From IMG/VR virus record IMGVR_UViG_3300021067_000013, positions 1-39,062 of that record: a DNA stretch of 39,062 nt; one strand, written 5' to 3'. The position numbers and the translations under genes are program-made. This DNA is from a virus. How positions within the stretch are numbered: position 1 is the stretch's first letter; each line of letters opens with the position of its first letter. This document shows positions 1-39,062 of the stretch, in pieces. The notes under the pieces are model-generated. The model was given only the letters and a program-made list of their open reading frames with translations. It had not been told where the DNA came from and did not search any database.

Positions 1-10
1 GAGGACGGCA
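1..10. repeat. Terminal direct repeat, left copy
   Basis: The first ten bases, GAGGACGGCA, are identical to the last ten (39053-39062). Joining the ends through this overlap restores one open reading frame without a frameshift, so the overlap looks like the closure point of a circular or circularly permuted genome rather than chance. Confidence 0.85.
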
Positions 11-737: not shown

Positions 738-1649
738 CTACACCACCCTCAGCCGCCCGACCTCTGGCAGCTGCTCGAGCGCGCTGGCGGCCTGATCGCC
801 GACCAGGGCGGTGTAGCCCACGGTGCTCTGGATCGTTTCGTGACGCATCAGCTCCTGCACCACGCGAAGGTTGCCGGTCGCGCGTAGCAGATTCGTCCCG
901 TACCAGTGGCGCAACGTGTGCAGCGTCGAGTCGATCCCCACCTCATGGAGCCACCGGTTGGTGCGGCGCGACACCTGCCCAGCTGACACCGGCCGGCTGG
1001 GATCGTCGCCGGCAGGGAACAGCCAGCCACGACGCGGCAGCCTCGCGAACGTCGACCGCAGCTGCGGTGCGAGCGGCACGCTGCCAGGATCACCGCCCTT
1101 CTGCTCGCGGATCACGATGACGTCGCCACGCACGTCCTCGCCGCGTAGCGGTGCTATCTCGCAGGCACGCAGCCCCGCGTACGCGGCGAGGTGCAGCCAG
1201 GCGCGGATGGGATCCTCGGACCTGGTAAGCGCCACCTCGACGTCTTCGTCAGGCATCGGCCTCGGCAGCAGCTTCTTCCGCTGCGGCCGCTCGAGCCGCA
1301 CCGTGGGGTCCTGGCTGATGAGCCCCTCGAGCAGCGCCCACCGGTAGAACGCGACGAGGTGGTTGGTTTCCGCGGCGACGGTTTCCGTCGCGAGCTCGGC
1401 GCGCTCAGTGAACGCGCGGAGGTCCTCGAGCTGCAGGTCGAGTAGCGCCCGCTGGCCGCTGAATCTGGCGAGTCGAGCGAGCGCACGGCGGCGCTGGTAG
1501 ATCGTCCCCGGCCGCTTTCTGAGCCGCTCGAGGTGCGCGAGGTGGGCGGCTACGACGGCGCCGGCGGCACCGAAGCCGACCAGCTCAGCGGACATCGACT
1601 CGAGCGTCGCACGCAGCACCGCCATCACCGTCGCTGCACCCCCCGGCAT
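738..1649 (-). CDS. int: Tyrosine recombinase (phage integrase)
   Basis: 303 residues from the ATG at 1649, chosen because GGAAGG lies 11 bases upstream, much like the repressor's site. The frame is open further up to 1772, but those codons run over the attP region. Residues 30-115 form an N-terminal SAM-like core-binding domain, and 135-303 the catalytic domain. The full catalytic set is visible: Arg161 (AGLRACEI), Lys184 (REQKGG), His244-x-x-Arg247 (HTLRHWYG), His270 (LMRHETIQST) and Tyr279 (VGYTAL). There is no large extra arm-binding domain. It should catalyse integration at the host tRNA gene matching the adjacent attP and, with a directionality factor, excision. It lies downstream of the repressor on the same strand. 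Its C-terminus (GRLRVV) carries no ssrA-like degradation tag, unlike the integrases of the BPs-type system. Confidence 0.97.
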   Translation of the reverse strand: MPGGAATVMAVLRATLESMSAELVGFGAAGAVVAAHLAHLERLRKRPGTIYQRRRALARLARFSGQRALLDLQLEDLRAFTERAELATETVAAETNHLVAFYRWALLEGLISQDPTVRLERPQRKKLLPRPMPDEDVEVALTRSEDPIRAWLHLAAYAGLRACEIAPLRGEDVRGDVIVIREQKGGDPGSVPLAPQLRSTFARLPRRGWLFPAGDDPSRPVSAGQVSRRTNRWLHEVGIDSTLHTLRHWYGTNLLRATGNLRVVQELMRHETIQSTVGYTALVGDQAASALEQLPEVGRLRVV

Positions 1650-1701
1650 CAGCAACCACACCTTCCAGGCTGATGTTCGGAATGCGACGGCCGTTTCCTT
1701 T

Positions 1702-1716
1702 AGGTGCCAGGCACCT
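1702..1716. promoter_or_regulatory. Perfect palindrome between int and rep
   Basis: AGGTGCC-A-GGCACCT has 7-bp arms around a single base. It sits between the repressor stop (1750) and the integrase start (1649), beside the tRNA-like core. The centre is too tight for a normal RNA hairpin loop, so a dimer-binding site or an arm-type recombinase or accessory-factor site is more likely than a terminator. Function not shown. Confidence 0.45.
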
Positions 1717-1749
1717 TCGCCGATACATGGGCCCCGATGCGGAGGCGCT

Positions 1750-2031
1750 CTAGGCGGCCACCTCAGAATCACTAGGTTCTGGGTTCGAGTCCCAGGGGGC
1801 GTACCACAACCGAGCGACCGGAACGCCGAAGGCTTCGGCGAAGAGGTCGAGGTCGCTGAGCCTCAGCTCGCGAGTTCCGCTCAGCCGTTCCTGGACCCAG
1901 GAGCGCTTCACGCCCATCCGGGCCGCGAGCTGCTCATCGGTCAGCCGGCGCATTGCCTTGAGCGCCCGGAGGTTGCCAGCGACGACGTCGCCGCTGCTGG
2001 CGCCTCCGCTGGTCTTCATTCTGGTGGCCAT
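1750..2031 (-). CDS. XRE-family repressor with attP-encoded C-terminus
   Basis: 93 residues from the ATG at 2031, preceded by GGAAGGACGGG; the frame stays open to 2118 but lacks a ribosome site there. Residues 18-75 are a lambda-Cro/XRE helix-turn-helix domain (LTDEQLAARMGVKRSWVQERLSG holds the two helices), followed by LRLSDLDLFAEAFGVPVARL, typical of phage repressors. Residues 76-89 (WYAPWDSNPEPSDS) are the antisense reading of the tRNA-derived attP core. The last residues, EVAA, come from phage DNA just past it. Integration would therefore cut off and replace this tail. A C-terminus ending in VAA resembles ssrA-type ClpXP tags. It should bind the repeated elements upstream and shut off the rightward early promoter. 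Assignment as the immunity repressor is inference from domain and position. Confidence 0.88.
   Translation of the reverse strand: MATRMKTSGGASSGDVVAGNLRALKAMRRLTDEQLAARMGVKRSWVQERLSGTRELRLSDLDLFAEAFGVPVARLWYAPWDSNPEPSDSEVAA
1767..1806 (+). other. attP: Putative attP core: 3' half of a tRNA gene
   Basis: Read on the plus strand, this segment folds as the end of a class I tRNA. It holds the 3' strand of an anticodon stem (1769-1773), a 5-nt variable region (1774-1778), a T-stem CTGGG/CCCAG (1779-1783 and 1791-1795) with loop TTCGAGT, the acceptor 3' strand GGGGCGT (1796-1802), discriminator A and encoded CCA (1804-1806). The bases upstream do not form the matching D-arm or anticodon 5' strand, so this is not a functional tRNA. 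It is the usual signature of an attP core that rebuilds a host tRNA gene on integration. Crossover by tyrosine integrases commonly falls at the anticodon loop, here about 1762-1768. The host tRNA identity is not resolved. The core lies inside the 3' end of the repressor gene on the other strand. Confidence 0.88.
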
Positions 2032-2192: not shown

Positions 2193-2402
2193 ATGCCCGC
2201 AGACACCGGCACCGCCGAGGGCCAGCACACCCTCACCGTCACCCAGGCAGCCCGCCTGCTCGACGTCCACCCTGACACCATCCGCCGCTGGGCCGACAAC
2301 GGCCTGCTGCCGTCCCACCGCACGCCGACCAACCAACGGCGCTTCCTGGTGGAGGACATCCAGAAGCTGCTGCCCCAGCCGCCCCAGGACGGCGACGCGT
2401 GA
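2193..2402 (+). CDS. Excisionase/MerR-type helix-turn-helix protein
   Basis: 69 residues. Residues 14-60 (LTVTQAARLLDVHPDTIRRWADNGLLP followed by RRFLVEDIQKLL) are a typical winged HTH of the HTH_17/BldC/excisionase group. It is the first gene of the rightward early operon, facing the repressor. It could act as Cro-like control protein, as excisionase (directionality factor for the tyrosine integrase), or both. The sequence cannot separate these. The ATG at 2193 has no Shine-Dalgarno sequence, and translation is probably leaderless. Confidence 0.9.
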   Translation: MPADTGTAEGQHTLTVTQAARLLDVHPDTIRRWADNGLLPSHRTPTNQRRFLVEDIQKLLPQPPQDGDA

Positions 2403-15995: not shown

Positions 15996-17771
15996 ATGGC
16001 CGCGATCCTGCTGACGCGCCTGGCGGAATCCGTCCACCCGGTCATCGGCCGGCGTCGCTTCGTCCCCGCGGTCGAAGGCGACGTCCCCGACTGGTCGATC
16101 ATCGACCTCCGCCCGGACTGCACGGTGCCCGATGGGTTCGCGCTGGTCGGCACGTCAGGCGACGCGACCGCGGCGGCGCTGCTCAGAGCCGGCGGCCTCA
16201 AGCTCGGCGAAACCCTCGATGACACGCTGGGCCCGCTGCTGCGCACGCGCCTCGGCAACCAGCTCGGCCTCGACCTGTCGGACACCACGGTCCGCCAGCT
16301 GCTGCGCACCATCCTCATCGCCGAGGGAAGGGAAGACGGCAGCCGCTGGCGTCCGTTGCGCGCCGACCGCGACGGCAACCTCGACATCAACCTCCCCTTC
16401 GCCGGCGTCCGCGACCGCATCCTGGTCCCGAAGGGCGGCGCATCGTCGGACACGTTCACCTACAGCAACGGCGCGCTCGCCACCGTCTCGTCAGGCGCAT
16501 GGGTCAGCGACGCCGGCACCATGAACGTCGTCAGCAATCATGCCGAATGCGGCGCAGGGAACGGCGCCCGAGCACGCTTCGCGACCGACCTCGGCACCCC
16601 CGACAACGACTCGCAGTACGTCGTCCAGTTCCGCGGCGGCACGAACCACACCGGCGTCGTCGTCGCCATCTGCCGCCTCGCCGGCGCGACGTACACCGGC
16701 TACGGCCACGTCCGCTACCTCGACGCCGGCGCCGGCGGCGGCTACATCAACAAGAACGTCGCCGCCAGCGAGACGCAGCTCAGCAGCGACCACGGCACCG
16801 GTCCGGTCCCCGACGCGACGGACACGCTCTTCGTCAGCGCGAGCGGCACGACGATCACCGCGAAGCGCGACGGCACGAACATCACCGGATCGCCGCTCAC
16901 CGACTCGAGCCTCAGCACCGGCAACTTCGTCGGCTTCGAGATTTTCGACGGCTTCGTCAACCCCGGCGAAGAAACCTTCGTTGACGACTTCGCATCGACG
17001 TTGCCGGCCGGCGGTGGAAGCACCCCCATCAGCGCGAGTGACAGCGCGAGCGCGACTGACAGCACCAGTGTCGCGGCAGCCACCAGCGGCAGCGACGCCG
17101 CCAGCTCGGCTGACGCGAGCATCCAGAGCGCCGGCATCGGCGGAGGCGACACCGCCGCCGGCACCGACACCGGCGGCATCACCGCAACGACCAGCGCCGG
17201 CGACACCGGCAGCGGCGCCGACGCGAGCAGCTCGGCGGCCGCGCTCACCGCCGGCGACACCGCCACCGCGACCGACAGCGCCACCGTCGTCGCGGTGACC
17301 GCCATCACCGCCGCCGACTCAGCGACGTCAAGCGACTCGAGCAGCCTCGCCGCCGGCACCGCCGGCACCGACACCGGCGGCATCACCGATACCGGCGGCA
17401 TCACCGCGACGACCAGCGCCGGCGACACCGCCACCAGCACCGACTCGAGCGGCCTCGGCGTCACCCCCGACGCCGGCGACACCGGCACCAGCAGCGACTC
17501 GAGCGGCATCGCCGCCGCAGTCAGCGTCACCCAGCCCGCCGCCAGCGTCGACCTCGCCGCCATCACCGCGCTGGTCATCGCTGGCCAGTCCGCCACCGTC
17601 GCCGACCTCGCCACCGTCGACACCGGCGAGGTCATCGTCAGCGAGCGCGGCTGCATGAGCATCGACCTGGCGAACACCGCCAGCATCGGCTTCGCCCGCT
17701 CGAACACCGCCAGCATCGTCGCGACCGTCACGTCCACCGCGACCGTCGCCATCACCGTTGAGGACTGCTGA
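15996..17771 (+). CDS. Fibre or surface protein with low-complexity repeats
   Basis: 591 residues. Residues 1-140 are an attachment-type N-terminal region. About 145-330 look like a laminin-G/jelly-roll beta domain (FTYSNGALATVSSGAW, NDSQYVVQFRGGTNHTGVVVAICRLAG, NFVGFEIFDGFVNPGEETFVDDF). Residues 345-545 are degenerate repeats of Asp, Thr, Ala, Ser and Gly (units such as AGDTATATDSATV and TDTGGITATTSAGD). Residues 546-591 form a compact end with one Cys pair. The repeats suggest an extended stalk. A host-surface-binding or head-fibre role is likely. It is placed before the terminase, away from the tail genes. Confidence 0.75.
   Translation: MAAILLTRLAESVHPVIGRRRFVPAVEGDVPDWSIIDLRPDCTVPDGFALVGTSGDATAAALLRAGGLKLGETLDDTLGPLLRTRLGNQLGLDLSDTTVRQLLRTILIAEGREDGSRWRPLRADRDGNLDINLPFAGVRDRILVPKGGASSDTFTYSNGALATVSSGAWVSDAGTMNVVSNHAECGAGNGARARFATDLGTPDNDSQYVVQFRGGTNHTGVVVAICRLAGATYTGYGHVRYLDAGAGGGYINKNVAASETQLSSDHGTGPVPDATDTLFVSASGTTITAKRDGTNITGSPLTDSSLSTGNFVGFEIFDGFVNPGEETFVDDFASTLPAGGGSTPISASDSASATDSTSVAAATSGSDAASSADASIQSAGIGGGDTAAGTDTGGITATTSAGDTGSGADASSSAAALTAGDTATATDSATVVAVTAITAADSATSSDSSSLAAGTAGTDTGGITDTGGITATTSAGDTATSTDSSGLGVTPDAGDTGTSSDSSGIAAAVSVTQPAASVDLAAITALVIAGQSATVADLATVDTGEVIVSERGCMSIDLANTASIGFARSNTASIVATVTSTATVAITVEDC
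17175..17429 (+). repeat. In-frame DNA repeats in the fibre stalk
   Basis: A 33-bp unit at 17175-17207 recurs at 17397-17429 with one A/G change, 222 bp (74 codons) apart. Shorter ACCGACACCGGCGGCATCACC copies lie between. In-frame repeats of this kind allow the stalk to grow or shrink by recombination. Confidence 0.7.
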
Positions 17772-18073: not shown

Positions 18074-18549
18074 TGGGACGTCGAGGACCTGCGCCGGCGA
18101 CCGTCGAGCAGAAGGAAGCCAAGGGAGAACGCAAAGATCGCCGGCCGAAGAACCCTGCGAAGCCGAAGCCTGGGCTGCCGGCAGCACCTCGAGGCATGCG
18201 CCGCGAGGTCAAGGCCATCTGGGACTACACCCTCGACCAGATCGAATTCATGCGCACCGCTTCGCCGGCCGACCGCGACATCCTCGTCGCGTACTGCGAA
18301 GCGGTCGCCGACCACCGTGCGCTCAGCGCCGAGCTGGCGAAGAGCGACCTGCTGGTCACCGGCAGCACCGGCAACCTTGTCGCCAACCCGCTCATCCAAC
18401 GGAAGACCGACCTGGCGCGCACCATCGCGCGCCTCGGCGCAGAGTTCGGACTGACGCCGCGAGCTCGAGCAGAGTTCGACGTTCCCGCACCGCCAGGTCC
18501 TGCACCTGATGGCGAACAGCGCGACCCCCTCCGCCTACTCACCGCCTGA
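18073..18549 (+). CDS. terS: Terminase small subunit, P27 family
   Basis: 158 residues. It has the P27 signature: MGRRGPAPATVEQKEAKGERKDRRPKNP at the start, a helical middle (WDYTLDQIEFMRTASPADRDILVAYCEAVADHRALSAEL), and the closing ARTIARLGAEFGLTPRARAEFD. It recognises phage DNA and loads the large subunit. It starts on the last base of the preceding stop and overlaps the large subunit by 41 bases. Confidence 0.95.
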   Translation: MGRRGPAPATVEQKEAKGERKDRRPKNPAKPKPGLPAAPRGMRREVKAIWDYTLDQIEFMRTASPADRDILVAYCEAVADHRALSAELAKSDLLVTGSTGNLVANPLIQRKTDLARTIARLGAEFGLTPRARAEFDVPAPPGPAPDGEQRDPLRLLTA

Positions 18550-20287
18550 CCACCAGAAGCGTTGGCGGCCACGCCAGCGTGGTGGTCCGGTCTGCAACTA
18601 CACCTTCGACGGCAAGCGCTGCACGAAGAAGGGCGCGCACTACTGCGAACCGCGCGCCGACAAGCCCGTCCGCTTCTTCGCCGAGCTGCTGGTCCACACC
18701 AAGGGCGCGCACGCGCGGCAAGCGTTCATCCTCGAGCCCGAGCAAGAGCACGAAATCATCCGTCCCATCTTCGGCGAGGTCATCTGGTCGCCGGAGTGGC
18801 GGCGCTACGTCCGCCGCTACATCGTCGCCGCCATCGTCATCGCCAGGAAGAACGGCAAGAGCGAGATCGCTGCCGGCATCGCGCTCTACCTGCTGATCGC
18901 CGACGACGAAGAAGGCGCCGAGGTGTACGGCGCCGCGAAGGACACCAAGCAAGCCGGCAAGGTGTGGGAACCGGCGTCGCGCATGCGGCTGCTCAGCGCG
19001 GTGCTCGCGAAGCGTCTGGGCGTCAACAAGAACAGCCGTCGCATCTTCGACGCTGCCGGCAGCAGCGGCAGCTACTACGAGGTCATCACCGCCGACGCGC
19101 TCGGCGAGCTGGGGCACAACCCGCACGGCTTCCTGCTCGATGAGGTCCTCAGCCAGCCAGACGGCAGCCTCTGGGAAGCGATGCGCACCGCCGCCGGCAC
19201 GCGCACCCAGCCGCTCTTCTTGCTCATCACCACCGAGACGAACGATGACAGCAGCTTCGGCGCCGAGGTCATTGACGAAGCCGAACGCATCCAGGAAGAC
19301 CCGAAGCGCAACCCGCGCCAGTTCGCGTACGTCCGCAAGATGCCGCGCACCGACCAGCAGCTCGAGACGCTGCGCCGGCGTTTCCCCAACCATCCGCGTC
19401 TGCCGGTCAGCCTCGACCCCTGGGATGAGCGCAACTGGTATTGGCCCAACCCCGCGCTCGGCAGCTTCCTGAGCATCGAGTCGCTGCGCCAGGAAGCGCT
19501 CGAGGCGAAGCTCGAGCCGAAGAAGGAAAACGGCTTCCGACAGTTCCGACTCAACCAGCGCGTCCAGCAAGCCACGCGCTGGATGCCGCTGCGTCTCTGG
19601 GACGACGCCGGCGACGGCCGCGCCTGGTCCCCGATCCCCGAAGGTGAGCTGCACGGCCGCCTCTGCTACGGCGGCCTCGACCTCGCTGCCACCACCGACA
19701 TCGCCGCGCTCTGCTGGCTCTTCCCCAACGACGACGACGACAGCGCCCGCGTCATCTGGCGCTTCTGGCTCACCGAAGAGGTCCTGCCGTTCCTCGACCG
19801 GCACACCGATGGCGCGGTCAGCCAGTGGGCACGCGCCGGCTACATGCGCATCACCGAAGGCGACGTCATCGACTTTGAGGACATCCGCGACGTCTTCGAG
19901 CAGGACCTCGGCAACTTCCGCGTCGCTGAGCTGGGCTACGACCCCTGGGGCGCGCCCGACACCGTCAGCTGGCTGCAGAAACGCGACGTCACCGTCTACC
20001 CCATCCGACAAACCTACGAAGGGCTGAGCAGCTCGATGACGGAGCTGATGCGCTTGACGAAGGCGCACGGCCTCGACCACGGCGGCCACCCGGTCGCGCG
20101 CTGGATGGTCGACGCAGTCGCGGTCAAGAGCCCAGCCGACCAGCCCGACGTCATCCGCCCCATCAAACCGAACCGCGCCGCGAGCGGCCGCCGCATCGAC
20201 GGCATCGTCGCCGAGGTCATGGCAATCGCCGCCTGGAAGCGCGAGCACGAAGCGCCGCCAGCCGCTGCCGATTTCTTCACCATCTAG
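18509..20287 (+). CDS. terL: Terminase large subunit
   Basis: 592 residues. ATPase domain: Walker A RKNGKS (113-118), Walker B FLLDE (208-212) and coupling motif TTE (241-243). RNase H-like nuclease: Asp391 (GGLDLAATTD), Asp478 (GYDPWGAPD) and Asp564 (DGIVAEVMAIAAW). It pumps DNA into the prohead and cuts it. The first 50 residues carry CNYTFDGKRCTKKGAHYC, a Cys/His cluster that may bind zinc and lies outside the conserved motor. The type is compatible with either cos or headful packaging; the ten-base terminal overlap does not decide it. Confidence 0.97.
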   Translation: MANSATPSAYSPPDHQKRWRPRQRGGPVCNYTFDGKRCTKKGAHYCEPRADKPVRFFAELLVHTKGAHARQAFILEPEQEHEIIRPIFGEVIWSPEWRRYVRRYIVAAIVIARKNGKSEIAAGIALYLLIADDEEGAEVYGAAKDTKQAGKVWEPASRMRLLSAVLAKRLGVNKNSRRIFDAAGSSGSYYEVITADALGELGHNPHGFLLDEVLSQPDGSLWEAMRTAAGTRTQPLFLLITTETNDDSSFGAEVIDEAERIQEDPKRNPRQFAYVRKMPRTDQQLETLRRRFPNHPRLPVSLDPWDERNWYWPNPALGSFLSIESLRQEALEAKLEPKKENGFRQFRLNQRVQQATRWMPLRLWDDAGDGRAWSPIPEGELHGRLCYGGLDLAATTDIAALCWLFPNDDDDSARVIWRFWLTEEVLPFLDRHTDGAVSQWARAGYMRITEGDVIDFEDIRDVFEQDLGNFRVAELGYDPWGAPDTVSWLQKRDVTVYPIRQTYEGLSSSMTELMRLTKAHGLDHGGHPVARWMVDAVAVKSPADQPDVIRPIKPNRAASGRRIDGIVAEVMAIAAWKREHEAPPAAADFFTI

Positions 20288-20297
20288 GAGCTGCCGC

Positions 20298-20510
20298 ATG
20301 GGCAAGCCCGACATCCTCTTCGCCATCGGTGCGCTCTGCATCGCCGCCGGCGTCGCGCTCATCTACGTCCCCGCCGGCATCATCGTCTTCGGCGTCCTCG
20401 CCATCGTCGGCGCCGTGGTGCTCGCACTCGCCGAGCGCGGCGCGGCGGTGCGCCAGCTCGAGCGCCAGCGCGAGCTCGAGCCTGTCGCTGACGCCGAGGT
20501 CGCCGCCTGA
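20298..20510 (+). CDS. Small two-helix membrane protein
   Basis: 70 residues with AGGAG before the ATG. Two hydrophobic helices (ILFAIGALCIAAGVALIYV and GIIVFGVLAIVGAVVLALA), then a charged tail (VRQLERQRELEPVADAEVAA). It lies between terminase and portal, where several actinophages have a short membrane protein. Function unknown. Confidence 0.78.
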   Translation: MGKPDILFAIGALCIAAGVALIYVPAGIIVFGVLAIVGAVVLALAERGAAVRQLERQRELEPVADAEVAA

Positions 20511-21853
20511 TGAGCCTGTTGGGCAACGCGTTCGCCGGCGCCGTCGACCTGCGCGACACGCTCGCCAACGTCGAACGCGACCTCGAGGTGCGCGCCTACG
20601 TCGAGCAGCCCTCAGCGTCGATGACCAGCGGCGGCTGGACGCAAGGCATGGCGACCTGGCATGGCGGCTGGTTTCTCGATGACGTCGACCAGGCCATGCG
20701 CCTCACCGCCGTCTTCGCCTGTCTGCGCATCCTCAGCGAAGCGGTCGCGACGCTGCCGCTCAACCTGTACCGCGAACGCGACGACGGCAACCGCAGACTG
20801 CTCGGCCGACGCGACACCCCCGAACCGTTCCTCTTCCTCGAGCCAGGCCTCAGCAAGATCGACTACCTCAGCCAGGTCATGCTGTCGCTGCTCACCGATG
20901 GCAACGCCTACATCGCAACCATCCGCGGCGCGCTCGGCCAGCTGCTCGACCTCATCGTCCTCGATCCGCACCAGGTCAAGGTCGAACGCAAGCGCCGTCG
21001 CAACCCTGACGGCACCCAAGGGCCGCTGCAGCTCATCTACACCGTGGGCCAGCAGGAGCTGCACCCCATCCTCGACATCCTGCACATCAAGGGCATGAGC
21101 CGCCCCGGTGCGCTCACCGGCCTCAGCCCGATCACCTACGCCGCCGAAACCGTGGGCGTCGGCCTCAACGCGCAGCGCTACGGAGACAGCTTCTTCAACA
21201 ACGGCGCGCTCGCCAGCGCGGTCATCGAAGCCAACGGCGACTTCCCCGACGAAGCAGCGCGCCGCTGGCGCGACACCTGGAACGCCGGCCACCAGGGCGT
21301 CGCCAACGCCAATCGCATCGGCGTCCTCACCAACGGCGCCACCCTCAAGAAGGTCAGCATCACCCCGGAAGAAGCGCAGTTCCTCAGCACCCGCCAGTTC
21401 ACCGTGCCCGACGTCGCGCGCGTCTACGGCGTCCCCCCGCACCTCATCGCCGACGCGTCGAACAGCACCAGCTGGGGCAGCGGCCTCGCCGAGCAAAACA
21501 GCGCCTTCGGCCAGTTCAGTCTGCGCGCCTGGACGGAACGCCTCGAGGAAGCCCACAACCGGCTGCTCTGGCGCGACGGCCTCTTCGACTACTGCACCGA
21601 GCTGGATATGGATGCTGTCCTGCGCGCGTCGTTCAAGGAACGCATGGAGGCGGTGCAGATCGCGCTCGGCGCCGAGGTCATGGTGGTCAACGAAGCGCGC
21701 AAGGGCGAAGGCCTCGAGCCGGTCCCCTGGGGCGACAAGCCCATCCGCCTGCAGACCTCGAGCACGCCGGCGCCGCCGGCGCCGCAGCCGACACCGCCGC
21801 AACCCATCCCCGCACCTGCGCCGCCGGCGCCTGCCATGAACGGAGCGAGCTGA
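20510..21853 (+). CDS. Portal protein, HK97 type
   Basis: 447 residues. Conserved portal phrases include RLTAVFACLRILSEAVATLPLNLYRE, YLSQVMLSLLTDGNAYIATIRG, HIKGMSRPGALTGLSPITYAAET, FFNNGALASAVIEANGDF, ARVYGVPPHLIAD and FGQFSLRAWTERLEEAHNRLLW. The C-terminal 50 residues are Pro/Ala-rich. It forms the dodecameric ring through which DNA enters and leaves the head. It starts on the last base of the previous stop and ends on the first base of the protease start. Confidence 0.96.
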   Translation: MSLLGNAFAGAVDLRDTLANVERDLEVRAYVEQPSASMTSGGWTQGMATWHGGWFLDDVDQAMRLTAVFACLRILSEAVATLPLNLYRERDDGNRRLLGRRDTPEPFLFLEPGLSKIDYLSQVMLSLLTDGNAYIATIRGALGQLLDLIVLDPHQVKVERKRRRNPDGTQGPLQLIYTVGQQELHPILDILHIKGMSRPGALTGLSPITYAAETVGVGLNAQRYGDSFFNNGALASAVIEANGDFPDEAARRWRDTWNAGHQGVANANRIGVLTNGATLKKVSITPEEAQFLSTRQFTVPDVARVYGVPPHLIADASNSTSWGSGLAEQNSAFGQFSLRAWTERLEEAHNRLLWRDGLFDYCTELDMDAVLRASFKERMEAVQIALGAEVMVVNEARKGEGLEPVPWGDKPIRLQTSSTPAPPAPQPTPPQPIPAPAPPAPAMNGAS

Positions 21854-22722: not shown

Positions 22723-23997
22723 ATGACCACCACCCTCGAGCTGCTGCGCGACAACTTCACGCGTCGCGTCGACATCCAGGGCGAGCTGCGCGAGGTGGAC
22801 GAAGCCGCCACCCAGGAGCAGCGCGCCTACAGCGAGCAGGAAGAGCAGCGCATCGCCGAGCTGCGCACCGAGCTGGAAGCCATCGACGGCCGCATCGCCG
22901 CGAACCTGCAGATGGAGCTGCGCACCGAACAGCTCACCGGCGGTGTCGACCAGCTGCTCGGCGCGATGCTCGAGCGCGAGAGCGGCAACGTCGTCGACCT
23001 CCGCAGCGTCGGCGAGCGCTTCGCGGACGGCAACGCCTACGCCGAGTGGGCCAACGCCGGCGCGCGCGGCACGTTCGCGCACGACCTCAGCGGCCTCGAC
23101 CTGCGCGCCGTCACCGACACCACCACCGGCGCAGCGAGCGCCGGCGCCTTCGTGGTGAACCAGATGCTGCCGCGCATGGCGCGCAGCTTCCTGGACCGGC
23201 GCGTCTACCTGTCGGACCTGCTCGACCGCATCCCGGTCAGCACGCCGGCGGTCGAGTACGTCCAGGACATCAGCCCGCTGGCGGACCTCGCCAACAAGGC
23301 GGTCGAGGTGACGGAGGGCAGCGCGAAGCCGCAGGCCGGCATCACCACGCAGCTCAACACCGAGACGATCGCGACCATCGCCGCGTGGGCGAACATCACG
23401 CGGCAGGCGGCCGCCGATGTCCCGATGATCCAGGGCTACCTCGACGGCCGGCTGCGGTACAGCCTCAAGCGCCGCCTCGACAGCCAGATCATCAACGGCA
23501 ACGGCACCGCGCCGAACATCCGCGGTCTGCTCAACCGTTCCGGCATCCTGACCTACGCGCCCGGCGCGGCAGAGCAGCGAGCCATCAGCATCCGCAAGGG
23601 CATCACGCTGATGGAGAACGCCGAATCGGTCCCCGAGATCGTGGTGCTCAACCCGTCCGACGCCGAGACGTTCGACCTGACCAACAGCGCGGCCGCAGGT
23701 CTGCACGCGGTCGACTGGTCGGCGGACGGCCGCGGTGGCTTCCAGCAGTCCCCGTCGCGCACCGCGTGGGGCCTGGTGCAGGTCCACAGCACCGCGATCA
23801 CGGCCGGCACCGCCATGCTGCTCGACCCGCTCGCGGTGTCGATCCTCGACCGCATGACGCCGACCGCGTACATGACCGACAGCCACGCGTCCAACTTCAC
23901 CGCCAACATCCTCACGCTGCTGCTCGAGCTGCGCGCGGGTCTGGCGCTGTTCGCACCGGCCGGCGTGGCGGTCATTACCTTCAACGGAACGACGTAG
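22723..23997 (+). CDS. Major capsid protein, HK97 fold
   Basis: 424 residues. Residues 15-70 are a charged coiled coil (VDEAATQEQRAYSEQEEQRIAELRTELEAIDGR), the delta/scaffold region. After a variable segment the mature fold begins near 125-145 (TGAASAGAFVVNQMLPRMARS) and includes SAKPQAGITTQLNTETIATIAAWANITRQAAADVP, RRLDSQIINGNG, PEIVVLNPSDAETFDLT and the last strand MTDSHASNFTANILTLLLELRAGLALFAPAGVAVI. AAGGAGG precedes the ATG, the strongest ribosome site in the window, as expected for the most abundant protein. Confidence 0.97.
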   Translation: MTTTLELLRDNFTRRVDIQGELREVDEAATQEQRAYSEQEEQRIAELRTELEAIDGRIAANLQMELRTEQLTGGVDQLLGAMLERESGNVVDLRSVGERFADGNAYAEWANAGARGTFAHDLSGLDLRAVTDTTTGAASAGAFVVNQMLPRMARSFLDRRVYLSDLLDRIPVSTPAVEYVQDISPLADLANKAVEVTEGSAKPQAGITTQLNTETIATIAAWANITRQAAADVPMIQGYLDGRLRYSLKRRLDSQIINGNGTAPNIRGLLNRSGILTYAPGAAEQRAISIRKGITLMENAESVPEIVVLNPSDAETFDLTNSAAAGLHAVDWSADGRGGFQQSPSRTAWGLVQVHSTAITAGTAMLLDPLAVSILDRMTPTAYMTDSHASNFTANILTLLLELRAGLALFAPAGVAVITFNGTT

Positions 23998-28318: not shown

Positions 28319-28579
28319 GTGGGCTGGACGTTCCTCGGCGAAGCCGAAGAGGGTTCCCTCACAGCAGCCGAATGGGAACGCATCTACCTGATCGTCAACC
28401 AGCGAGGGCTACCCCACGCTGAAATCGATGTCGACCCGCTGCACTGCCCGACCTGTCGCATCGCGTTCGCGGCGGTGCTGGTGGCGCGCGAAACCTCACT
28501 GGCTGACGCTGCTGCTGAGGTGGCAGCGCTGCCGGCGACGGCGTTGGTCGACGCGTTCGATTACGGGGAGTCCGCATGA
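28319..28579 (+). CDS. Small protein between tail tube and tape measure (chaperone position)
   Basis: 86 residues from GTG 28319. It occupies the place of the tail assembly chaperone. It has a short CPTC pair (LHCPTCRIAFAAVLVARETSLADAAAEVAAL). I saw no slippery heptamer or overlapping second frame, so the usual programmed frameshift is not apparent. Its stop overlaps the tape measure start by 4 bases. Confidence 0.68.
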   Translation: MGWTFLGEAEEGSLTAAEWERIYLIVNQRGLPHAEIDVDPLHCPTCRIAFAAVLVARETSLADAAAEVAALPATALVDAFDYGESA

Positions 28580-30240
28580 CAACCGTGACCGAACGGCTGC
28601 GACTTGTCATCGACGCTGTTTCGAAGGACGCCGCCGACAAGATTCGCGGTGTCGGCGACGAAACCGAGAAGGCGTCGATCAAGACCCGGCTGATGACCGC
28701 CGCGTCCGACAAGCTTGGCGTCTCGGTCGATGAGACCGGCAGACTGCTCAAGACCGGACTTGCGCTCGGCGCTGGTGCTGCTGCCGGCGGCCTCGCCGCG
28801 CTCGCCATCAGCGGCGTCAAGCAGTTCACCGACCTCACCGACCAGGTGCGGGACTTCCAGCGCGTCTCTGGTGCGAGCGCCGAGGACTCTTCGCGGTGGG
28901 TCGCTGCGCTCGATGACATGGAGATCAGCGCCGACGCCGGCGCGCGCGCGGTGTTCAAGCTGTCGCGCGAGATCGGCGAAGGCGGCGGAAAGCTGCGCGA
29001 GTTCGGCGTCGAGATCGCCAAGAACAAGGACGGGACCACCGACCTGTCAGGCACGCTGCTCAACATCGCCGACGCGTACAAGCACACCAGCGACGAAGGC
29101 GAGCGCGCGGCGCTCATCCAGGCAGCATTCGGCCGAGCCGGGAAGGAGCTAATCCCGGTCCTCGAGCAGGGCCGCAAGGGCATCAAAGACCTGTTCGAAG
29201 GTGCCGAGGAAGGCCACCAGATTTTCTCGCAGGAAGACCTGCAGAATGCTCGCGAGTTCGAGCTGGCAATGGACGACCTGCAGGACACCCTGCGCGGTTT
29301 CCAGATCGAAGCCGGCAAGGCGGTTGTTCCCGCGCTGACCGAACAGTTGAACAACGCGAGCGAAGGCCTCGAGCTCGCGGACAAGGGCGCGAACCTGCTG
29401 GGCACCTCACTCGCTGACATCGGCGGTGAGGCGCTGCACGTCATCAACCCATTCCACGGCCTGACCGACGCGGTGAGTGGGCTAGGCGATGCGCTCGGCA
29501 TCGGTGGCGATGACACCGAGGACTACGGCGACAAGCAGGAGAAGGTCAAAGAGAAGACCCAAGACCTCGCCAACGCGATCACCGAGCACGGAAGACATTC
29601 GAAGGAAGCGCGCGACGCGCAGCGCGAGCTGACGTCAGCAACGCGGGACCTGCGCGGCGTGCAAGACGACGCCGGCAACGCATTGCAATCGGTGAACGAG
29701 AAGCTGCAGACGCAGGCGGAGAAGGCGTACGCGGCGGCGCAGGCGGACCTGCAGTTCGGTGCCAACAAGCTGAACGTCGAGAAGTCTGTTACCGCGGTCA
29801 GCGAAGCGTTCGACCAGTACAACCAGGTCGCGATCGCGAACCTTGCTGCGAATGACACCAGTGCCCAGGCCACTCGCAACCTCCAGTCTGCCCATCAGGG
29901 CCTGGTTGGTGCGGTGCTCGCATCAGTGCAGGCAGCAGGGAAGAAGGCGGCCGACGACCTCGGCCCGAACGTGAGCGCGGCCGACAGAATGAAAGCGGCG
30001 ACCAACGCGCAGCAGTATGCGCTGCTGCTGCTCGAGCAGCAGTTTCCCGGCCTGCGTGGTCAGGTACAGGGGTACGTAGGCGACCTCGACCGGACGACCG
30101 GCGAGCGACACGCGACCGTCACCGTCGATACCTCGCAGGCGCACGCCGCCATCGCGGCATTGGTCGAGGACCTCGACGCGGTCGCCAATCGCGTGGTGAA
30201 CACGACGATCAACGTCATCAAGAAGGAGTTCGGCGGCTGA
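28576..30240 (+). CDS. Tape measure protein
   Basis: 554 residues, mostly helical. A hydrophobic segment at about 58-82 (GLALGAGAAAGGLAALAISGVKQF) is followed by VRDFQRVSGASAEDSSRWVAALDDM and FGRAGKELIPVLEQGRKGI, which are tape-measure phrases, then long charged helices with many Gln/Ala/Lys. At roughly 1.5 angstrom per residue this would set a tail of about 80 nm, a short siphovirus tail. It gives tail length and is ejected before DNA. Codon choice is clearly looser here (GTT, TCT, TTG) than in the tube and tail genes, pointing to mosaic origin. Confidence 0.93.
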   Translation: MTTVTERLRLVIDAVSKDAADKIRGVGDETEKASIKTRLMTAASDKLGVSVDETGRLLKTGLALGAGAAAGGLAALAISGVKQFTDLTDQVRDFQRVSGASAEDSSRWVAALDDMEISADAGARAVFKLSREIGEGGGKLREFGVEIAKNKDGTTDLSGTLLNIADAYKHTSDEGERAALIQAAFGRAGKELIPVLEQGRKGIKDLFEGAEEGHQIFSQEDLQNAREFELAMDDLQDTLRGFQIEAGKAVVPALTEQLNNASEGLELADKGANLLGTSLADIGGEALHVINPFHGLTDAVSGLGDALGIGGDDTEDYGDKQEKVKEKTQDLANAITEHGRHSKEARDAQRELTSATRDLRGVQDDAGNALQSVNEKLQTQAEKAYAAAQADLQFGANKLNVEKSVTAVSEAFDQYNQVAIANLAANDTSAQATRNLQSAHQGLVGAVLASVQAAGKKAADDLGPNVSAADRMKAATNAQQYALLLLEQQFPGLRGQVQGYVGDLDRTTGERHATVTVDTSQAHAAIAALVEDLDAVANRVVNTTINVIKKEFGG

Positions 30241-38983: not shown

Positions 38984-39062
38984 ATGGCTGAGCGAGCGAA
39001 GAAGACACCGACGAAGAAGCCGGCCAGCTCGAGGCGCCGGCGCTGGGGCGTCGAGGACGGCA
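38984..39062 (+). CDS. N-terminal part of end-spanning gene
   Basis: ATG 38984 with GGAAGG 8 bases upstream. The frame is open to the end of the window and continues at base 1 of the window after removing the ten repeated bases. The 23 unique codons encode a basic, Lys/Arg-rich N-terminus. See the entry at 1-210 for the rest of the protein. Confidence 0.82.
   Translation, partial: MAERAKKTPTKKPASSRRRRWGVEDG
39053..39062. repeat. Terminal direct repeat, right copy
   Basis: GAGGACGGCA, identical to bases 1-10. See the left copy. The unique genome length is therefore 39,052 if the ends are joined. Confidence 0.85.

Follow-up and report, generated by a model that had tools for sequence, protein, structure and literature searches.

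The locus considered here lies in an IMG/VR virus record that codes for a siphovirus, the whole of which (39,062 nucleotides) we refer to as the window. Its genes and features, in window coordinates, are the following.

738-1625, minus strand: tyrosine integrase of the armless type, about 295 aa
2031-1750, minus strand: XRE/HTH immunity repressor of 93 codons (93 aa), whose viral form ends PSDSEVAA
1750-1767, minus strand: virus-only tail SEVAA plus stop codon, predicted from the in-silico attL to be lost at integration
1762-1766, plus strand: anticodon-loop positions CTC plus AG, the phage reading CTCAG against CTCTT in the 40-odd host tRNA genes compared
1767-1806, plus strand: attP common core, a 40-nt 3' half of tRNA-Lys(CTT), from A37 to A76 with CCA
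2193-2402, plus strand: divergent HTH_17/MerR-like protein, 69 aa (Pfam HTH_17, 5e-12; MerR, 3e-12)

With integrase (738-1625) and repressor on the minus strand and the HTH gene (2193-2402) on the plus strand, the gene order is the one that the original prediction had equated with that of the mycobacteriophage immunity switches. The repressor (MATRMKTSGG...VARLWYAPWDSNPEPSDSEVAA) has its HTH_31/HTH_3 domain (Pfam) between residues 20 and 74 and matches PHROG transcriptional repressor families. In a single-sequence structure model, residues 13-76 form helices of high confidence and the score is low (pLDDT about 51) past residue 80, for which reason the tRNA-derived part of the protein is probably a flexible end.

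The core, AATCACTAGGTTCTGGGTTCGAGTCCCAGGGGGCGTACCA, comprises the T-arm, the acceptor strand and the CCA of the tRNA. Repressor codons 76-88, from W76 to D88 (WYAPWDSNPEPSD), are the antisense of plus-strand positions 1768-1806, with A1767 completing the 40 nt. The proposal that codons 76-89 are antisense to a tRNA 3' half thus stands for codons 76-88 within the core, codon 89 (TCT, Ser) spanning tRNA positions 35-37; EVAA and the stop codon fall beyond the core, as had been claimed. Followed from A76 back to A37, the phage tracks the tRNA, departs from it at anticodon bases 36 and 35 (AG versus TT), matches it again over the CTC upstream of AG, and then diverges. The AG standing in for anticodon TT converts what would be an antisense TAA stop into TCT in the phage. 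A tRNA-Leu(CAG) identity of the core was considered and dropped, the variable loop being too short for it and the core having its matches in tRNA-Lys genes.

An exact 32-mer of the core had no match among about 85,000 species genomes (all genome contigs), and a slightly looser 30-mer had 44 loci, almost all in Acidimicrobiia and nearly all tRNA-Lys(CTT). Scanning 395 Acidimicrobiia genomes with two mismatches allowed led to one family whose tRNA-Lys(CTT) genes are identical to the core at 38 of 40 positions, far beyond chance, the two differences forming a single compensatory T-stem pair. The tRNA-Lys(CTT) sequence of this family, AAGTGACTCTTAATCACTAGGTTC(A/G)GGGTTCGAGTCCC(T/C)GGGGGCGTACCA, is present in 11 of its 12 genomes, and most of these differ from the core by that compensatory pair only. 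The exact 40-nt core had no match in the 395 genomes or in a wider search of the order, neither repressor nor integrase turned up in the family's 12 genomes, and no lysogen was found; the host-genome search that had been suggested as a check therefore yielded the 38/40 match in one family, and neither the exact core nor a lysogen. The host is most likely a member or near relative of this family that has yet to be sampled. In viral contigs, core patterns were found either nowhere or only in the contig of one further locus, which we set aside: a tRNA-Lys core lies beside an integrase there, with no repressor running into the core.

Close relatives of the repressor and of the att site were likewise not found in our searches, which would fit a reading in which the overlap between gene and attP comes from an antisense tRNA that is open by chance, the contig being a dead or misassembled prophage remnant. 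We consider this very improbable in view of the rest of the window, which looks like a whole siphovirus.

18509-20287: large terminase
20510-21853: portal
22723-23997: major capsid
28576-30240: tape-measure-like protein

Also against the remnant reading, the two contig ends have 10 bp in common (GAGGACGGCA, window 1-10 and 39053-39062), a frame crosses the end joint (MAERAKK...WGVEDGIPPWGPNPHNDYVEVF..., named YegP-like by eye from its sequence), and a second contig is 100% identical to the window over 12.7 kb. From the end overlap and the frame across the joint, we take the contig to be probably a complete genome, either a circle or a molecule with cohesive ends of 10 bases. A single tRNA was called in the phage, tRNA-Thr(CGT) (window 16835-16911, minus strand). 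It falls within a plus-strand frame of 591 aa (15996-17771) for which PHROG gave no match, and the call may be real or false.

Let us then consider what integration would do to the repressor gene. Prior to integration, the gene would be read through attP, that is, through the antisense of the tRNA-Lys 3' half, to end in SEVAA. Recombination by the integrase would then take place between the 40-bp core and the 3' half of tRNA-Lys(CTT) in the host, so that at attL the tRNA would be rebuilt while the repressor gene on the opposite strand would meet a TAA made of anticodon bases 35-36 and A37. The resulting protein would stop at D88 with its tail gone, and this short form, presumed stable, would repress the divergent early promoter.

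The stop on which this scheme depends is present throughout our sample: in all tRNA-Lys(CTT) genes examined, the antisense of host T35-T36-A37 is TAA in the repressor frame. We rebuilt attL in silico from host left flanks, the phage core and the phage right arm, for every crossover point in the core and for a set of 76 tRNA-Lys locus entries that includes overlapping ones. The virus encodes ...WYAPWDSNPEPSDSEVAA followed by its stop, and the in-silico prophage repressor ends ...WYAPWDSNPEP(S/A/T/R)D followed by the host stop, individual residues changing with differences in the host core. SEVAA is removed whatever the crossover point, giving a predicted prophage form of 88 aa ending PSD, and ARAGORN finds tRNA-Lys(CTT) rebuilt at the in-silico attL of the best-matching host family. 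The expected loss of EVAA on rebuilding attL is thus borne out over the 76 entries, apart from offset artefacts at cut or non-homologous host 3' ends and one outlier (L097), which ends ...NPEPID. The original prediction erred, however, in having the last residues exchanged for host-encoded ones: the Lys anticodon reads TAA in antisense, so that the host stop falls directly after D88. With this refinement its main inference, the logic of BPs, Brujita and Charlie, is supported by attP within the repressor, the integrase downstream on the same strand, the divergent HTH gene and a predicted host stop that drops five residues; it is a stop, and not new residues, that the host would supply. The phage right arm beside the core reads CACAACCGAGCGACCGG.

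Published accounts define integration-dependent immunity by attP within the repressor gene, a shorter and active prophage form, a host stop near attL and, usually, a tail ending in -AA (PMC4557955, PMC9934374, PMC8092301, PMC5559632). We consider it quite likely that the window encodes such a switch in full, including degradation of the tailed form and immunity conferred by the short one. Alternatively, attP might merely overlap the 3' end of the repressor gene, with SEVAA inert and immunity working as in ordinary temperate phages. The shortness of the tail, five residues only, and the presence of the whole HTH domain in both forms are what one would expect in that case. However, the two anticodon bases at which the phage differs are exactly those of the antisense stop, in a core that otherwise follows the tRNA, and both gene order and reading frame match those of known switches; we therefore hold the inert tail to be unlikely.

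The tail is the least certain part of the proposed switch. We argue for its function from its position, exactly on the part removed by integration, and suggest that SEVAA probably marks the protein for ClpXP-type degradation, in which case only the short form would be stable and give immunity. In the candidate host family, tmRNA tags have the endings ALAA, DLAA or GLAA, with which EVAA shares the closing Ala-Ala and a hydrophobic residue, the leucine being absent. An AA end alone is weak evidence, and the caution attached to the original prediction on this point was apt: AA ends are common in the alanine-rich proteome, at 5 of 50 predicted phage proteins, and an unrelated 70-aa gene between terminase and portal (window 20298-20510) likewise ends EVAA, both of which would suit an inert tail. 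The switch might also be real and its tail act by another route, the long form being stable and inactive or antagonistic (for example through altered oligomerisation), or being the target of another protease. Some known systems work without ssrA-like tails, the M. abscessus MabC, N, O and H repressors using this layout without ssrA-like or -AA ends (PMC8092301), and the leucine in the host tag ending LAA has no counterpart in EVAA. The terminal hydrophobic-Ala-Ala nevertheless resembles ssrA ends, and a different route appears to us rather improbable compared with degradation of the tailed form.

The integrase lies downstream of the repressor gene and collinear with it, across a gap of about 120 nt. 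It matches Pfam Phage_integrase (E 3e-18) and, weakly, a SAM-like core-binding domain; it is 31-34% identical to its counterparts in Charlie, Brujita, Ewald and Meyran, and the catalytic residues (R, K, H, R, H and Y) are conserved. Aligned to these four it has no extra N-terminal domain, and no arm domain was matched in Pfam; 'armless' integrases have been noted before (PMC6109161). It ends RLRVV, with no ssrA-like end, in agreement with the earlier remark that the integrase is untagged. Such a tag is not a requirement, being absent also from the integrases of MabC, K, N, O and H (PMC8092301).

On the other side of the repressor, the divergent gene occupies the position of the excisionase or Cro-like genes of known systems. 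Between the two, CGGCAAMGTRC, a motif derived from the same region in which it was counted, has three exact sites (2096-2106 plus, 2138-2148 minus, 2178-2188 minus) and no other exact copy in the window; this cluster at 2096-2188 is suggestive, and only suggestive, of putative operators. A promoter scan of 1600-2300 gave no sigma-70-like promoter and one weak terminator-like site. An inverted pair, CCTTTAGGT/ACCTAAAGG, and a palindrome, AGGTGCC/GGCACCT, at window 1697-1718 and 2125-2136, flank the core and are possible integrase or excisionase sites.

The repressors of Charlie, Butters, Redi, Ewald, Meyran and Brujita all include a stretch of antisense tRNA, read in the frame used here (..SN..P..). 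In the first five, which have a tRNA-Lys-type core, the stretch reads GSNxxPADY, and over the anticodon the phage has TAC, which a single base separates from TAA; given the Lys anticodon, TAA would be expected at this point from the attB tRNAs of M. smegmatis and Gordonia. Charlie and the cluster N phages Butters and Redi have, as in the window, integrase and repressor leftward and a divergent gene rightward, and their repressors end SAA (Charlie, Redi) or EVA (Butters). In contrast to the window, about 21 residues separate the TAC codon from the end in the Charlie type, against five here; the body of the Charlie-type repressor is unrelated to ours at the sensitivity used, and its host is Mycobacterium. 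The Gordonia phages Ewald (LAA) and Meyran (LAAA) have the same antisense tRNA segment and frame and an integrase of armless length, but their integrase too ends AA, unlike that of the window, and the tail is about 18-19 residues. tRNA-Lys is also the reported attB of the Gordonia CW phages (PMC5559632). Brujita (cluster I), with a repressor ending HAA, carries the tRNA segment inside the gene in the same frame with a different tRNA as target, and its integrase ends AA, which that of the window does not. Ewald gp35 and Brujita gp35 belong to the same HTH_17 family as the divergent gene of the window.

Tails beyond the junction are thus about 18-21 residues in the Lys-type group. In BPs (cluster G), integration gives a shorter, active repressor with 33 residues removed (PMC4557955). 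For the Bifidobacterium prophages Bb423phi2 and 689b-1, viral repressors rebuilt in silico had an extra ssrA-like C-terminus (PMC6109161); the site there is tRNA-Met and 18 residues are lost, against tRNA-Lys and five in the window. A loss of five residues is the shortest among the systems compared, the others being reported at 18-35. A relation to tRNA-dependent lysogeny, which involves a short core (about 10 bp) that does not rebuild the tRNA and a phage tRNA of the same isotype (PMC10865867), was rejected: the 40-nt core rebuilds tRNA-Lys, and the single tRNA called in the phage, Thr(CGT), is not of that isotype.

The range of integration-dependent immunity, described in phages of Mycobacterium, Gordonia and Bifidobacterium, would thereby come to include a probable Acidimicrobiia phage, which suggests an old origin of the switch or its wide sharing among phages of actinobacteria. 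We found no earlier report of it in this host class, which appears to be new for such switches; the layout and its consequence for the repressor are well supported, and the tail is unusually short. We lean, if only somewhat, toward regarding the locus as a minimal form of the switch in Acidimicrobiia, a group distant from the hosts known until now, with a five-residue tail fused directly to the junction and with the host anticodon, read backwards, as the stop; on this minimal reading, held with the same modest preference, the host could not lose the anticodon-derived stop without destroying its lysine tRNA. A sequence rule follows as well: where tRNA-Lys (or, from the code, tRNA-Asn) lies in the repressor frame in this manner, the anticodon gives a stop, and attP must differ there. 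For a test of degradation, a five-residue tail offers a small, clean object.

A few observations concern the tRNA-Lys gene itself. Among the 44 genome loci of the 30-mer, with frames judged by eye, no recognisable repressor ran antisense into tRNA-Lys; the frames present include a PAP2-like one and others. At one of these loci (L043), a frame that by eye resembles a PAP2 phosphatase runs antisense into tRNA-Lys and stops there at this same TAA, and the host gene there may borrow the tRNA-Lys antisense stop too. Five loci (L024, L025, L031, L047 and L054) are lone tRNA-Lys half-cores in Acidimicrobiia MAGs, and some of the genomes with a lone half-core also hold a full tRNA-Lys with the same 3' flank. 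These look like junctions of other elements, with the tRNA-Lys gene as a repeated integration site.
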